Assembly: GCA_016839905.1 (NCBI GenBank)
Contig: JAEOTJ010000469.1
Span: 1-5,618 of the forward strand
DNA from: Promethearchaeota archaeon
Lineage (GTDB): Archaea > Asgardarchaeota > Lokiarchaeia > Sigynarchaeales > SOKP01
DNA length: 5,618 nt
Direction of reading: 5' to 3'
Below are positions 1 to 5,241 of this stretch, piece after piece. A program made the position numbers and the translations under genes. Position 1 is the stretch's first letter. Every line of letters begins with the position of its first letter. A model generated the notes under the pieces. The model was not told the origin of the DNA. It worked only from the letters and a program-made list of their open reading frames with translations, and searched no databases.

Positions 1-244
<244 letters not shown>

Positions 245-567: not shown

Positions 568-581
568 CTTAAAGGTTTATT

Positions 582-1589
582 ATGCATTTAAATGAGAAAA
601 TTGGAATTCATTTAGATCAAATCAAGCAAATTAAAGGAGTAGAAAATGCCGTCTTAACTCAAAGAGATGGAAATCCAATTCAATCAACAGGAGTTTGGTT
701 CTCAAAGGATGAAATTTTTAATGTTTGTTCTGCTGCTAGTGCAATATACAATATTGGAATACACCTGCATCCAATAGATTTAAGATATATTTTAATTGAA
801 GGTAAAAAGGCAAAAATTTTAATTGCTCCATTAAATAGTCCTTTACATTCTTCTTTAAATAGAATTTTAGAGCAACAAGGAATTATTAGCCAAGATAATA
901 ATCATGAATTTTTTATTGCAATTTCTGCTCATCCTAATGTAAATTTGGGAGGGATTTTTTTACAAACAAGTGAATGTTTAAGAAAAATTAAAACAACTTT
1001 AATTACATCTGGAGAATCCTTTAAACCCCCTCTAATTGAATTTAATAATCAGAAAATTCAAAATATTATTGAAGGTTTCAGTGTTAAAGAAGATAATCAA
1101 ATTAATTTTAGATTATCTTCATTCTCACTAAGTTTTTCAGAAGAAATCTCTTTAGAATTAAAAAGAGTACTAAAAGATTTCTCTTTAACCATACCTGATT
1201 TAAGATATGCATTTATTACAATTGAAGGAGGATTTATTGTGTCTAAAATATTAAAAAATGCTAATTTAAGTAAGGATAAGTTAGATCAAACATCAGCGAT
1301 GAGCTATTCCCTCTTTCAAACAGCAAATCGGTGCGCTTGGTTATTAAAAAAGATGAATGCAGAGTCAATTTTGCTTGATTGTGAAACATCATTTCAATTT
1401 ATAACTGGACTTGGAAAAGCAATATTTAATACTGAAATAGGGAAAGCGAGGCAAAAATTAGGATTATTAAGATTAGTATTACCACAATTTTCAAAAAAAA
1501 TTAATAATCTTATCAAAAGAGCAACCAAAATTCAAAATTATAGAACTTTTGACATTAAAAAATTGCTAGGTGAATTAATAATTAAGTAA
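582..1589 (+). CDS. Tandem Roadblock/LC7-domain protein, putative GTPase regulator
   Basis: This 335-residue cytosolic-looking protein has no signal peptide or membrane segment. Residues about 8-142 resemble a Roadblock/LC7 fold. An N-terminal helix (LDQIKQIKGVENA) leads into a strand-turn with a DGNPI turn (about 22-35), a central helix (about 43-60), strands at 68-83, a further strand near 110-116 and a closing helix near 128-140. Residues about 186-312 look like a second, diverged copy, with the turn ITIEGGFIVS at 212-221 and a helix near 235-258. Roadblock proteins dimerise and bind small GTPases: MglB is the GAP of MglA, and Ragulator subunits scaffold Rag GTPases. Two copies in one chain could form an intramolecular dimer. 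The gene heads an operon that ends in an MglA-like GTPase, supporting a regulator or adaptor role. The ATG at 582 fits the TATA box about 22 nt upstream. The first domain is the surer assignment. Confidence 0.75.
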   Translation: MHLNEKIGIHLDQIKQIKGVENAVLTQRDGNPIQSTGVWFSKDEIFNVCSAASAIYNIGIHLHPIDLRYILIEGKKAKILIAPLNSPLHSSLNRILEQQGIISQDNNHEFFIAISAHPNVNLGGIFLQTSECLRKIKTTLITSGESFKPPLIEFNNQKIQNIIEGFSVKEDNQINFRLSSFSLSFSEEISLELKRVLKDFSLTIPDLRYAFITIEGGFIVSKILKNANLSKDKLDQTSAMSYSLFQTANRCAWLLKKMNAESILLDCETSFQFITGLGKAIFNTEIGKARQKLGLLRLVLPQFSKKINNLIKRATKIQNYRTFDIKKLLGELIIK

Positions 1590-1601
1590 TGAGGGGAAAA
1601 A

Positions 1602-2516
1602 ATGAATTTCTTTAAAATACTGGATAAATTAAAAAAAAAAAAGCCTTCTTTGATTCTTTATTGTATTTTAAATAGAATCCCAATTTTTGTATTTGGAAAT
1701 AATGAGGATAAGATTGATGAATTCATAGTTGAATTTTCTGAACTTATTCATTTCAGAAAAGAATTCGTCTTTTATACAGATTTTTTATCACTAGAAGAAC
1801 ATAATCATTTAATTCAGAATGAATACATTGATTATAATTCTCAGCGAGCCCATATTAGATGTCCATGCGATGTTGCTTTTAAAGCCTTAAAACAATTTAA
1901 TAATTTTAATTCCTGGATAATTGGAATAGTTATTCCAAACCAAAAAGAAGAGTTTTTACATATCAAAAACCAAATAAAAGAGAAAATTCAAGAATTTTTA
2001 TGTATAAATATATCTTCCAAGAATATTATTGTAGAATTAGAAGGATTAAATGTAAAAGTAATTGATTTTACATTGGAACAAAACATTTTACAAAAAGTTT
2101 TTCAAGATACTGAGAGATCTATAACTCGAATGAAGAGAGCATTATCACAAACAATAAATTCAAATAAAATTAGTAAAGAATTAATTAAAATGTTATTGGA
2201 TTTTGAAGCTGAAAAAAAGGAATTAAAAAGAAATATATTTAAAAAAGAAATTCAAAATTTTTATTCTGGTTCAAAAAGAGCTTACTATATTTTTAGTAAA
2301 TTGAATATATTGAGTAATTTAGAAGTTAAAGCGAAAATTGGGAATAAAATTCTCTTAGATACAATAGATTATATAGATGCCCCAATAGAAAGAATTTTAT
2401 CATTTATTAATAAAGAATGGGGTGAAAATTTCTATGATTTTGTTGAATATGATAAAAAAGTGATAATTGGAGAAAAAATCTCTACTTTGTGGGGTTTAGA
2501 AAAATATGAGGTCTAA
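1602..2516 (+). CDS. Protein of unknown function in the Roadblock-GTPase operon
   Basis: I do not recognise a family for this 304-residue protein. It starts 12 nt after the Roadblock gene; GAGGGG at 1591-1596 is a good Shine-Dalgarno site for the ATG. It ends 6 nt before the GTPase gene, so co-translation is likely. The N-terminus is Lys-rich and hydrophobic (KKKKPSLILYCILNRIPIFV, 11-30), too charged for a confident membrane helix and better read as a helix plus buried strand. Residues 25-110 look like an alpha/beta domain: strand IPIFVFG, helix 38-50, strand EFVFYTDF, an acidic segment LSLEEHN, QRAHIRCPCD (81-90) and strand WIIGIVIP. GNNEDKID at 32-39 sits where a P-loop could be but lacks GK[ST]. 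Residues about 160-235 are helical and basic. Residues 236-300 may be a small winged-helix-like or alpha/beta tail. By context it is a candidate partner of the GTPase or Roadblock protein. Confidence 0.8.
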   Translation: MNFFKILDKLKKKKPSLILYCILNRIPIFVFGNNEDKIDEFIVEFSELIHFRKEFVFYTDFLSLEEHNHLIQNEYIDYNSQRAHIRCPCDVAFKALKQFNNFNSWIIGIVIPNQKEEFLHIKNQIKEKIQEFLCINISSKNIIVELEGLNVKVIDFTLEQNILQKVFQDTERSITRMKRALSQTINSNKISKELIKMLLDFEAEKKELKRNIFKKEIQNFYSGSKRAYYIFSKLNILSNLEVKAKIGNKILLDTIDYIDAPIERILSFINKEWGENFYDFVEYDKKVIIGEKISTLWGLEKYEV

Positions 2517-2522
2517 TATAAA

Positions 2523-3116
2523 ATGATATTTAACTATGATGAAAACACAGTATTAGTAAAAATTGTATATTACGGTCCTGCGATGTCGGGAAAAACTACT
2601 TCTATTAAATATCTATTTACATATTTTGGTAAAGAAGATAAATTAGAATCAATTGATAGTACCGTTGGAAGGACTTTATTTTTTGATTTTGGCGTTTTAC
2701 GATTCAAAGGGGAGGAATGGACTTTGGAATTTTTATTATATTCCGCAACAGGGCAGGACTTTTACGCAAGTACTCGTCCAGCAACCCTAAGTGGAGTTGA
2801 TGGGATTATATTCGTAGTTGATTCTCAGATTGATTATGTAGAACATAACCTAAGATCTTGGAACGAATTGAGAAGATTGTTTGGAGATGATATTTATAAT
2901 ATTCCAACCGTAATTTCATTAAATAAATATGATTTAGATTGCGTAAAAAAAATAGAAATAAATGATTTTATGAGCTATATTGATTTTAAGAAATTTAAAT
3001 ATCTATCATTAAAAAAAACAGTCGCAGTTAATGGAACTGGGGTTCTAGAGTCCTTTAAACAATTAATAAATTTTATTTTCCCCCAATTAACATTAAATAT
3101 GAATATTCCAAATTAG
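2523..3116 (+). CDS. MglA-like small GTPase (Ras superfamily)
   Basis: This 197-residue single-domain GTPase is the usual length for MglA. G1 (P-loop) is GPAMSGKTT at 18-26. Switch I is STVGRTLFFDF at 46-56, which matches the RTLFFDF signature of the MglA family; R50 aligns with the intrinsic arginine finger described in bacterial MglA. The G3 region is LYSATGQDFY at 72-81: the usual Asp of DxxG is replaced by Ser, as in MglA-type proteins (TVPGQ), while Gly77-Gln78 is kept. GVDGIIFVVDSQ follows at 91-102. G4 is NKYD at 134-137 and G5 is probably AVNGTG at 168-173. No C-terminal prenylation motif or transmembrane segment is seen. It is the last gene of the operon; GAGGT at 2508-2512, inside the preceding gene, is a possible ribosome site with slightly long spacing (10 nt). 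Its likely role is a GTP switch regulated by the Roadblock protein. The cellular process is unknown. Confidence 0.92.
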   Translation: MIFNYDENTVLVKIVYYGPAMSGKTTSIKYLFTYFGKEDKLESIDSTVGRTLFFDFGVLRFKGEEWTLEFLLYSATGQDFYASTRPATLSGVDGIIFVVDSQIDYVEHNLRSWNELRRLFGDDIYNIPTVISLNKYDLDCVKKIEINDFMSYIDFKKFKYLSLKKTVAVNGTGVLESFKQLINFIFPQLTLNMNIPN

Positions 3117-3134: not shown

Positions 3135-3314
3135 TTATATAATTTTTTCATACATATTTTTACCTATACGCTTAATATATCCTTGTAAATGAAATTGCTT
3201 TAGGATATTTCTTGCTTTACGCACGTCTGGGGCATCAATCCCTAATATTCCCATCAATTGAAAAATTGAAAATTGATTTGGTAGTTTTTCTTTAATATTG
3301 TTATAAAGACCCAA
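3135..3314 (-). CDS. Small winged-helix-like ORF, or tail of a decayed gene
   Basis: This minus-strand frame of up to 59 codons reads like real protein despite its size. After GLYNNIKEKLPNQFSIFQLM comes GILGIDAPDVRKARNILKQF, then HLQGYIKRIGKNMYEKII and stop. This is the helix / turn-helix / wing order of a winged-helix DNA- or protein-binding domain: a recognition-like helix at about residues 30-43 and a basic beta-wing GYIKRIGKNMYEKI at 45-58. The only start that includes the whole domain is a TTG at 3312-3314, preceded by GTGAT, a partial Shine-Dalgarno match; an internal ATG gives 39 residues. Just upstream, the ATG frame MNKIKVISIGSL-stop lies one base out of register and overlaps the TTG start. 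The locus could therefore be a frameshifted, decaying gene. I cannot name a family. It is convergent with the GTPase operon. Confidence 0.4.
   Translation of the reverse strand: MGLYNNIKEKLPNQFSIFQLMGILGIDAPDVRKARNILKQFHLQGYIKRIGKNMYEKII
3142..3161 (+). terminator. Oligo-T terminator candidate after the GTPase gene
   Basis: A T6 run (3143-3148) and a T5 run (3157-3161) lie about 25-45 nt after the GTPase stop codon. Archaeal RNA polymerase commonly terminates on such U-tracts without a hairpin. In this AT-rich genome T-runs are frequent, so the assignment rests mainly on position. The run also overlaps the last codons of the minus-strand winged-helix-like frame. Confidence 0.35.
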
Positions 3315-3627: not shown

Positions 3628-5241
3628 TTATTTATCTTTATTTTTCATTATATGATTAAGTCCTTTTAATAATGCTAAAACTGAGCTCATTACAATATCT
3701 TCATGAGTAGCACTGGTTTTTACAATATATTTACTGTCTAAATCCATTAATTCAATTGAAACCTGTCCTAATGCATCAGGTCCACCAGTAACAGCTTCAA
3801 TATTATAATCTAAAAGCTTAACTTTACTCATTGGTTCAAAACATTTAACCATTGCTTTAACAGATGCATCTACAGGTCCCACTCCTATTGATGATGCTAC
3901 TTTATCAATATAATTACCATTATTACGAATTTTTAAACGAACCGTAGAGGTAGGGGTAATAGTTCCTGTTAAAACGGATAATTCTTTGAGCATAACATAC
4001 TTTTCTTCTTTTGGGAGTTCACCCATAACATCTTTTACAATGGCTAAAAAATCTTCTTCAGTCACCTCATGGCCTTTATCGCCAAAATTTTTAATATGTT
4101 CCATTATACTACTTAATTGTTCATCCGTAGTAGGTATTCCTAAATCTATTAACTTAGCCTTAAGAGCATGACCTCCAGAATGTTTCCCAAGTTTAATAGA
4201 TTTACGTAATATTTCCCCAACATCATCAGAACGTTGGATTCCAATTAATTCTGGAGTTATGGGTTCATAAGCACGAGCATTTTTTATCATTGCGTGCGCG
4301 TGTATCCCCGATTCATGAGCAAAAGCATTTTGACCAATTAATGGTTGAAGCCTTCCAATTTTAATCTTTCCTCCACAATAACTTTCAATTAATTTTGCTG
4401 TTGGATAAATCTCCTCCATCTTAATATTCATTGGGATATTGTATAAAGCATAAAGCGACACTGCCGTTTCTTCGAAAGAGGCATTTCCTGCTCGTTCTCC
4501 TAAACCCATTATGGTTGTTTGGGCTTCTGAAGCACCATTCTCAAAACCCGCTATTGTATTTGCTACAGCTAATCCAAAATCGTTATGACAATGAACGGCA
4601 ATGCGTATATTTTTAGGAATGGATTCATTGATTTTTTTAATAATATCTCCATATGCTTTTGGTGAAATTGTTCCAACTGTATCAGGAATATTCACGCGAG
4701 TAGCTCCATTTTCGATTGCTGTTAGATTCGCTTTTATTAAAAAATCTAAATCTGTTCTTGTAGCATCTTCTGCAGAAAATAATATTGTTGAATAATGTTG
4801 CTTGGCATATGAAATCATATTTGTAATATGATCTAAGACTTCCTCTCGTGACATTTTAAGTTTTGATTTCATATGTAAATCTGAAGTTGCTATAAATACA
4901 TGAATACTATTTAAATCCGCATTAATAACACTATCAATATCTTCTTTTACCATTCTTGCTAAACCCATTATTTCTGAATCTAAGCCTAATTTGGCGATAT
5001 CACGGCAAGCATTAAATTCACCTTCAGAGATTATTGGAAATCCAGCTTCAATTATATCAATCCCTAAATTATTTAAAGATTGAGCTATAGATAATTTTTC
5101 CTCATGTGTAAAACTGATTCCAGGAGTTTGTTCCCCATCACGTAGTGTTGTATCAAAAAAATATGCTTTTTCTGGTAAGTTCAATGATTCTCGAATTTTT
5201 CCCATCATCTTTGAAACATTAATTTTATTTTCTTCCATCAT
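3628..5241 (-). CDS. leuA: 2-isopropylmalate synthase family enzyme (LeuA or citramalate synthase)
   Basis: This 537-residue cytosolic enzyme condenses acetyl-CoA with a 2-oxoacid; with 2-oxoisovalerate this is the first committed step of leucine synthesis. The HMGL-like TIM barrel spans about 27-295. It has FFDTTLRDGEQTPG at 28-41 (R34, D35, E37 and Q38 of the active site), IATSDLHMKSKLKMS at 117-131, EDATR at 158-162, HCHND at 217-221 (metal-binding His217 and His219) and GLGERAGNAS at 246-255. Linker motifs follow: NAFAHESGIHAHAMIKN (305-321) and LGKHSGGHAL (351-360). Residues about 400-530 are the LeuA allosteric dimer domain, which binds leucine in LeuA and isoleucine in citramalate synthases. 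That domain argues against AksA/NifV-type homocitrate synthases, although HAHAM recalls them. AGGTG at 5247-5251 lies 5 nt before the first ATG and supports it; a second ATG follows immediately. There is no adjacent leu operon in the window. Catalytic residues appear intact. Family assignment is firm; the 2-oxoacid substrate is not. Confidence 0.93.
   Translation of the reverse strand: MMEENKINVSKMMGKIRESLNLPEKAYFFDTTLRDGEQTPGISFTHEEKLSIAQSLNNLGIDIIEAGFPIISEGEFNACRDIAKLGLDSEIMGLARMVKEDIDSVINADLNSIHVFIATSDLHMKSKLKMSREEVLDHITNMISYAKQHYSTILFSAEDATRTDLDFLIKANLTAIENGATRVNIPDTVGTISPKAYGDIIKKINESIPKNIRIAVHCHNDFGLAVANTIAGFENGASEAQTTIMGLGERAGNASFEETAVSLYALYNIPMNIKMEEIYPTAKLIESYCGGKIKIGRLQPLIGQNAFAHESGIHAHAMIKNARAYEPITPELIGIQRSDDVGEILRKSIKLGKHSGGHALKAKLIDLGIPTTDEQLSSIMEHIKNFGDKGHEVTEEDFLAIVKDVMGELPKEEKYVMLKELSVLTGTITPTSTVRLKIRNNGNYIDKVASSIGVGPVDASVKAMVKCFEPMSKVKLLDYNIEAVTGGPDALGQVSIELMDLDSKYIVKTSATHEDIVMSSVLALLKGLNHIMKNKDK

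Follow-up and report, generated by a model that had tools for sequence, protein, structure and literature searches.

A tandem Roadblock protein, a predicted DENN-like protein and an MglA-like GTPase encoded together in Asgard archaea: a candidate GTPase switch

Roadblock proteins bind the small GTPase MglA as a platform for GTPase-activating protein (GAP) and guanine-nucleotide exchange factor (GEF) activity; in traffic, autophagy and nutrient signalling, DENN proteins act as regulators of Rab, Arf and Rag GTPases; and the lysosome has a Roadblock scaffold that works jointly with a small GTPase and a DENN-fold regulator. Passages of published work describe MglB alone as both GAP and GEF for MglA (PMC11016934), DENN proteins as Rab GEFs (PMC3521125), the DENN-fold proteins Avl9 and DENND6A as GAPs for GTPases of the Arf family (PMC12803157), and FLCN/FNIP as the GAP of Rag (PMC9481161). 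Passages of PMC3521125 (2012) also treat the Roadblock fold as the prokaryotic relative of longin, and propose that MglB-like Roadblock domains gave rise to longin, which in the eukaryotic stem became combined with DENN and d-DENN. Here we describe a three-gene operon on a 5,618-nucleotide stretch of DNA from a Promethearchaeota archaeon (contig JAEOTJ010000469.1; the whole stretch is hereafter the window). It encodes a Roadblock protein (RB), a middle protein (MID) with a predicted DENN-like fold and an MglA-like small GTPase, and is likely a three-part GTPase switch.

The three encoded proteins

The three open reading frames all lie on the plus strand, and their features (aa, amino acids) are as follows.

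582–1589, plus strand: RB, 335-aa tandem Roadblock protein (Robl_LC7 match, profile and half-versus-half comparison)
582–1076, plus strand: RB domain 1, aa 1–165, boundary approximate; the Loki version carries an insert
1077–1586, plus strand: RB domain 2, aa 166–335, boundary approximate
1602–2516, plus strand: MID, 304-aa DENN-like protein
1641–2051, plus strand: MID aa 14–150, alpha/beta part (DENN-like) without Walker A, from the secondary structure of the predicted model
2070–2492, plus strand: MID aa 157–297, all-helical part (d-DENN-like), from the predicted model
2490–2495, plus strand: MID W297-G298, conserved C-terminal Trp within a tail modelled at low confidence, from conservation and the predicted local distance difference test (pLDDT)
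2523–3116, plus strand: the GTPase, 197-aa MglA-like small GTPase (Arf/Ras above cut-off; MglA the best structure match)
2574–2597, plus strand: GTPase P-loop GPAMSGKT, aa 18–25 (G18, G23 and K24 in 69/69 operon GTPases)
2670–2672, plus strand: GTPase Arg50, aligned with MglA switch I Arg53, a proposed intrinsic Arg finger (69/69)
2754–2756, plus strand: GTPase Gln78, aligned with MglA Gln82, the catalytic Gln position (68/69, gap in the remaining row)

A preliminary description, made from the sequence alone, had placed the first gene in the Roadblock family and the third among MglA-like GTPases, and both placements held. Pfam Robl_LC7 matched RB aa 9–86 above its cut-off (26.3 vs. 23 bits), and Pfam Arf and Ras matched the GTPase above cut-off, covering aa 12–183. 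Bacterial MglA was the top solved-structure match of the GTPase (102 bits, E = 3e-28), the next family being Rab11 with 29 bits. All the marks of the MglA family were present: the P-loop, NKxD, the catalytic Gln, the switch I Arg and a replaced G3 Asp. Residues N134, K135 and D137 of NKxD were each found in 68/69 operon GTPases, with a gap in the remaining row, and the G3 Asp position was Ser or Thr in 68/69. Passages of PMC10933270 cite Arg53 of MglA as an intrinsic finger. Judged by these residues the GTPase should be an active enzyme, and any need of it for RB would follow by analogy with MglA.

By sequence comparison, RB carries two Roadblock domains, a feature missed in the preliminary description. 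In a profile of 22 RBs, the N-terminal part (positions 4–116) matched the Roadblock structure 7f8m (E = 1e-5) and the C-terminal part (169–288) matched the Roadblock structure 9jue (E = 1.3e-9); MglB structures matched this C-terminal part at E = 0.019–0.029. Alignment of the N half of RB with its C half in hhalign gave a probability of 93.3 (E = 2.7e-7). Such a tandem is what a covalent version of the MglB dimer would look like.

Predicted fold of the middle protein

The middle protein had been described as having no recognised family. This statement stands at the Pfam cut-offs, above which MID had no match, and fails beyond them, where the predicted fold is of DENN type. In a structure comparison of the predicted MID, DENN entries held the first seven places, and in a second comparison the DENN part of folliculin came out on top, ahead by 2.3 Z units. 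Folliculin aligned with model residues 1–275, whereas ATPases mostly aligned with residues 1–150 alone. The d-DENN-like part was judged within the whole-MID model; there, aa 157–297 are all helical and the folliculin match extends to residue 275. As in a DENN module, the predicted fold contains an alpha/beta domain of P-loop-like layout that lacks nucleotide-binding residues, and the Walker A motif GxxxxGK[ST] was found in 0/72 MIDs. W297 was present in 72/72 MIDs and G298 in 67/69, with a Trp among the last 10 residues in 72/72; the model had pLDDT below 50 at residues 286–294 and 296–304. These 72-sequence counts exclude loci L032–L064, which are mostly duplicates of the genomes in L001–L031 (L numbers denote loci, and G numbers genomes of a 227-genome set of the Asgard phylum).

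Sequence searches pointed the same way in part. Folliculin_C, the Pfam model of the DENN part of folliculin, matched 2 of the 28 MIDs scanned, and none of the other families among the 25 listed reached an E value as low as its best (5.1e-4). For the window MID, Pfam names below threshold, among them phage integrase and amylase domain, lacked consistency across members and were dropped. At E ≤ 1 Folliculin_C matched 53 of the 227 genomes, passing its cut-off in one (G023, 27.7 bits), and it matched 0/14 control genomes. Two of these matches were operon MIDs, and several of the strongest others were proteins of 308–362 aa in genomes free of the operon (L105–L115, L120). A profile of this Folliculin_C-like Asgard family (A7), largely picked by Folliculin_C, matched the MID profile (93.8, E = 1.7e-7, 57 columns); the GTPase and RB profiles, unlike this pair, gave no match (0.3 and 0.4). 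Against PDB sequences A7 had only three matches at E ≤ 10, all of them folliculin (0.11–0.53), a link that is partly circular and not independent because part of A7 was selected by Folliculin_C. A scan of the 227 genomes with the DENN-family model PF02141 found none above cut-off and was uninformative.

Other results were negative. Folliculin_C stayed under its curated cut-off on the MIDs (best 20.1 vs. 27 bits), and a search of Pfam, NCBIfam and PDB sequences with just the window MID yielded no match over the cut-offs. The MID profile found no DENN protein among PDB sequences, one A7 member alone found only BirA there, and a short joint profile of MID and A7 gave nothing significant, with SMCR8 at 1.2. 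Lastly, the MID chain has no N-terminal longin (u-DENN); the alpha/beta part comes first and the Roadblock is encoded by a separate gene. Because MID lacks a longin in its chain and scores below the Pfam cut-off, we classed it as DENN-like and left it outside the tripartite module. The DENN-like identity, which the preliminary description missed, is well supported by the predicted fold and thinly by sequence.

The A7 family itself is large, occurring in L105–L115, L120 and genomes G016–G073, which appear to be Heimdall-like. Its profile matched 71/227 Asgard genomes at E ≤ 1e-4, with as many as eight scored matches in a genome; in each of the six genomes G066–G071, two matches lay inside one frame of 746–783 aa. 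By eye, the N-terminal 100–130 residues of these proteins resemble a Roadblock/longin domain; short frames of 152–179 aa matched only this N-terminal part of A7, and Pfam gave no longin match on the family. In L112 the distance between an A7 protein and an Arf-family GTPase with sub-threshold C-terminal longin and Roadblock matches is 2.7 kb, and in L123 (4222–5760, minus strand) a 318-aa member begins 15 nt past a 188-aa small GTPase-like frame.

Distribution and genomic setting of the operon

At E ≤ 1, MID had 346 matches in a protein search, and every taxon-named row among the best 120 listed was Asgard. A scan of GTDB genome contigs yielded 31 loci, of which 30 were titled Lokiarchaeota or Lokiarchaeia and one Patescibacteria; this last contig (L016) carries the Loki operon and is probably mislabelled or from a mixed bin. 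Together with the archaeal 16S rRNA end in the window, these results bear out the tentative assignment to Asgard archaea in the preliminary description. MID was flanked by RB and the GTPase in 27/31 loci. L001–L003 had MID without RB or the GTPase nearby, and L031 (G009 C69) was a second copy of the operon in which RB is broken into two frames and the GTPase is truncated, the intact copy being on another contig. L004 (4167–4592, minus strand) and most other intact Loki loci also have, on the opposite strand and mostly about 1.1 kb past the operon, a second MglA-like GTPase gene (~228 aa, 29–36% identity to the operon GTPase), which is absent from the window.

Among the 227 genomes, the Loki MID profile matched 113 and a broader profile 120 at E ≤ 0.01, while the RB profile matched 114 genomes at E ≤ 1e-15. 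Full-length MIDs numbered 114, spread over 110 genomes. The preliminary description had proposed a neighbourhood survey, with middle proteins found mostly away from their partners as the outcome that would speak against it; instead, RB lay directly upstream and the GTPase directly downstream, on the same strand, in 108/114 full-length copies (here and below, counting GTPases among the matches listed). This count excludes the 17 weakest rows of the broader MID scan (E above ~1e-10), and MIDs shorter than 750 nt (G192, G007 C7, G077 C57, G163) were not scored as full length. The six exceptions were lone MIDs in G001–G003, the second copy of G009 with broken RB and GTPase genes, and contig ends in G221 and G077. 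All 40 regions around distant MIDs kept the order RB, MID, GTPase, and identity to the window MID dropped to 19–23% in the Thor group. We concluded that synteny excludes chance neighbours. RB–GTPase pairs without MID were found in six genomes (G003, G075, G077, G079, G080, G081), the pair in G003 lying elsewhere in the genome than its lone MID. Thus, the smallest unit consists of RB and the GTPase, which MID usually joins as a third member.

The window itself agrees with the tight packing described earlier, as both the list of open reading frames and the sequence gave gaps of 12 nt (RB–MID) and 6 nt (MID–GTPase) and a Shine-Dalgarno-like motif ahead of each ATG. These motifs and the flanking genes are as follows.

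571–575, plus strand: Shine-Dalgarno-like AAAGG ahead of RB
1591–1596, plus strand: Shine-Dalgarno-like GAGGGG ahead of MID
2508–2512, plus strand: Shine-Dalgarno-like GAGGT ahead of the GTPase, within the 3' end of MID
1–242, minus strand: 5' end of an archaeal 16S rRNA gene, upstream of and divergent from the operon
3628–5241, minus strand: 2-isopropylmalate-synthase-family gene (HMGL-like, LeuA dimerisation domain), downstream of and convergent with the operon

With a divergent gene upstream and a convergent gene downstream, the three genes form a closed unit; between the 16S end and RB there was no other plus-strand frame of at least 50 aa. A 59-aa frame with a TTG start (3135–3314, minus strand) had no Pfam match, resembles a small winged-helix fragment and may be due to chance.

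A candidate GTPase switch and its known counterparts

On balance we favor the reading that the three genes encode one regulated small-GTPase switch in which RB and MID form a two-chain counterpart of the longin-DENN module. Because it has its own switch I Arg and catalytic Gln, the GTPase is expected to hydrolyze GTP, as an MglA-type enzyme would do once its active site is ordered. RB would bind it as a covalent Roadblock pair in place of the MglB homodimer. MID, a putative DENN/d-DENN-fold protein whose own chain has no longin domain, may dock beside the Roadblock platform and touch the switch regions, an arrangement that would mirror DENN beside longin in eukaryotic modules. We propose RB and MID as a two-chain regulator because published DENN proteins are GEFs or GAPs and Roadblock is the GAP/GEF platform of MglA; by this analogy, MID together with RB probably controls the nucleotide state of the GTPase, with GEF slightly favored over GAP as its output. 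The conserved C-terminal Trp tail is the leading candidate docking peptide for RB or the GTPase. The earlier suggestion that the middle protein is a third subunit or exchange factor thereby gains a concrete basis in the predicted fold of a DENN-type regulator.

MID could instead be a degenerate P-loop or receiver-like adaptor unrelated to DENN, its likeness reflecting a common alpha/beta layout followed by helices. Even then the operon would remain a three-part GTPase switch, comparable to the Group 3 MglA systems of bacteria; for those, passages of PMC4316618 describe an unknown partner whose predicted N-terminus is receiver-like and whose predicted C-terminus is a winged helix. Matches of MID to GspE, FlaI and KaiC fit a degenerate P-loop ATPase, and we rated this reading second, but consider it unlikely given the lead of folliculin and the other DENN entries in the structure comparisons, the ATPase alignments that mostly stop at the alpha/beta part, the absence of Walker A from all 72 MIDs and the independent sequence matches to Folliculin_C. 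Receiver-domain families were not among the matches listed in the structure comparisons, which is no evidence against them.

The fold may also be read differently in function, with MID a downstream effector or membrane adaptor of the GTP-bound GTPase and RB alone performing exchange and hydrolysis. The six genomes with RB–GTPase pairs lacking MID, the dual activity described for MglB alone, and a Trp tail that fits a partner-binding peptide are all consistent with such a role; we nevertheless find it doubtful, as the published DENN-fold proteins cited above regulate GTPases, whether as Rab GEFs or as GAPs. That the three genes are neighbors by ordinary co-expression, for instance beside the 16S rRNA gene (just upstream and divergent in 25/31 Loki loci), and that their proteins do not act together, is very improbable when the order is kept in nearly all copies down to MID identities of 19–31%, and when MID is flanked by RB, a known MglA partner.

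There is perhaps an even chance that DENN-type regulation of GTPases originated in Asgard archaea, ahead of eukaryotes. The operon would be a split early form, comprising a tandem Roadblock, a free-standing DENN/d-DENN protein and an MglA-like GTPase. The Heimdall-like genomes would represent a fused longin-DENN stage, with DENN-like proteins bearing an extra N-terminal Roadblock/longin-like domain, in about eight copies, in tandem, and some beside Arf/Rag-like GTPases. The eukaryotic DENN module would then have been inherited and not invented in the eukaryotic stem. The operon also makes the proposal of PMC3521125 directly testable with three small soluble proteins. Passages of PMC10933270 state that GTPase and Roadblock genes of MK-D1 generally do not share operons, which makes it difficult to assign partners; in contrast, the partner set here is given by the genome in 110/227 genomes. 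Passages of PMC4316618, which predates Asgard genomes, describe archaeal Group 4 mglA genes as lacking conserved neighbors. The passages retrieved in a literature search, chiefly of open-access papers, described neither a DENN protein nor this operon from Asgard archaea, and those pairing Asgard with folliculin made no link between the two.

Conservons and Group 3 MglA systems were weighed as families for the operon and not adopted. The conservon of Actinobacteria (CvnA kinase, CvnB Roadblock, CvnC unknown, CvnD GTPase; passages of PMC4316618 and PMC13343842) likewise joins a Roadblock, an unknown protein and an MglA-family GTPase in one operon, but the window has no CvnA-type histidine kinase gene and MID has no Pfam match to conservon proteins. 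The preliminary description had likened the outer genes to both MglA/MglB and Rag/Ragulator. The lysosomal Rag-Ragulator-FLCN/FNIP system shares a Roadblock scaffold, a small GTPase and a DENN-fold regulator with the operon as read here, but it uses a Rag heterodimer and not a single GTPase. Since the 197-aa operon GTPase has no C-terminal Roadblock domain of the Rag kind (its Arf/Ras match ends at aa 183), the outer two genes resemble MglA/MglB of Myxococcus and Thermus more closely than Rag/Ragulator. The GTPase shares with MglA the switch I Arg, the Gln and the replaced G3 Asp, and its gene set likewise includes a Roadblock partner; the operon differs in having a tandem Roadblock in one chain, where MglB is a single-domain homodimer, and a third conserved gene between the two. 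From the eukaryotic DENN module (folliculin, C9orf72-SMCR8, DENND1, DENND10) the operon departs in the separate tandem Roadblock, the longin-free MID chain with its sub-threshold Pfam scores, and a GTPase that is MglA-like and not Rab, Arf or Rag. It resembles that module in the best structural matches of MID, in the predicted order of an alpha/beta DENN-like domain and then an all-helical part, and in the Roadblock protein and small GTPase encoded alongside, so that RB and MID may together be its split, two-chain counterpart.
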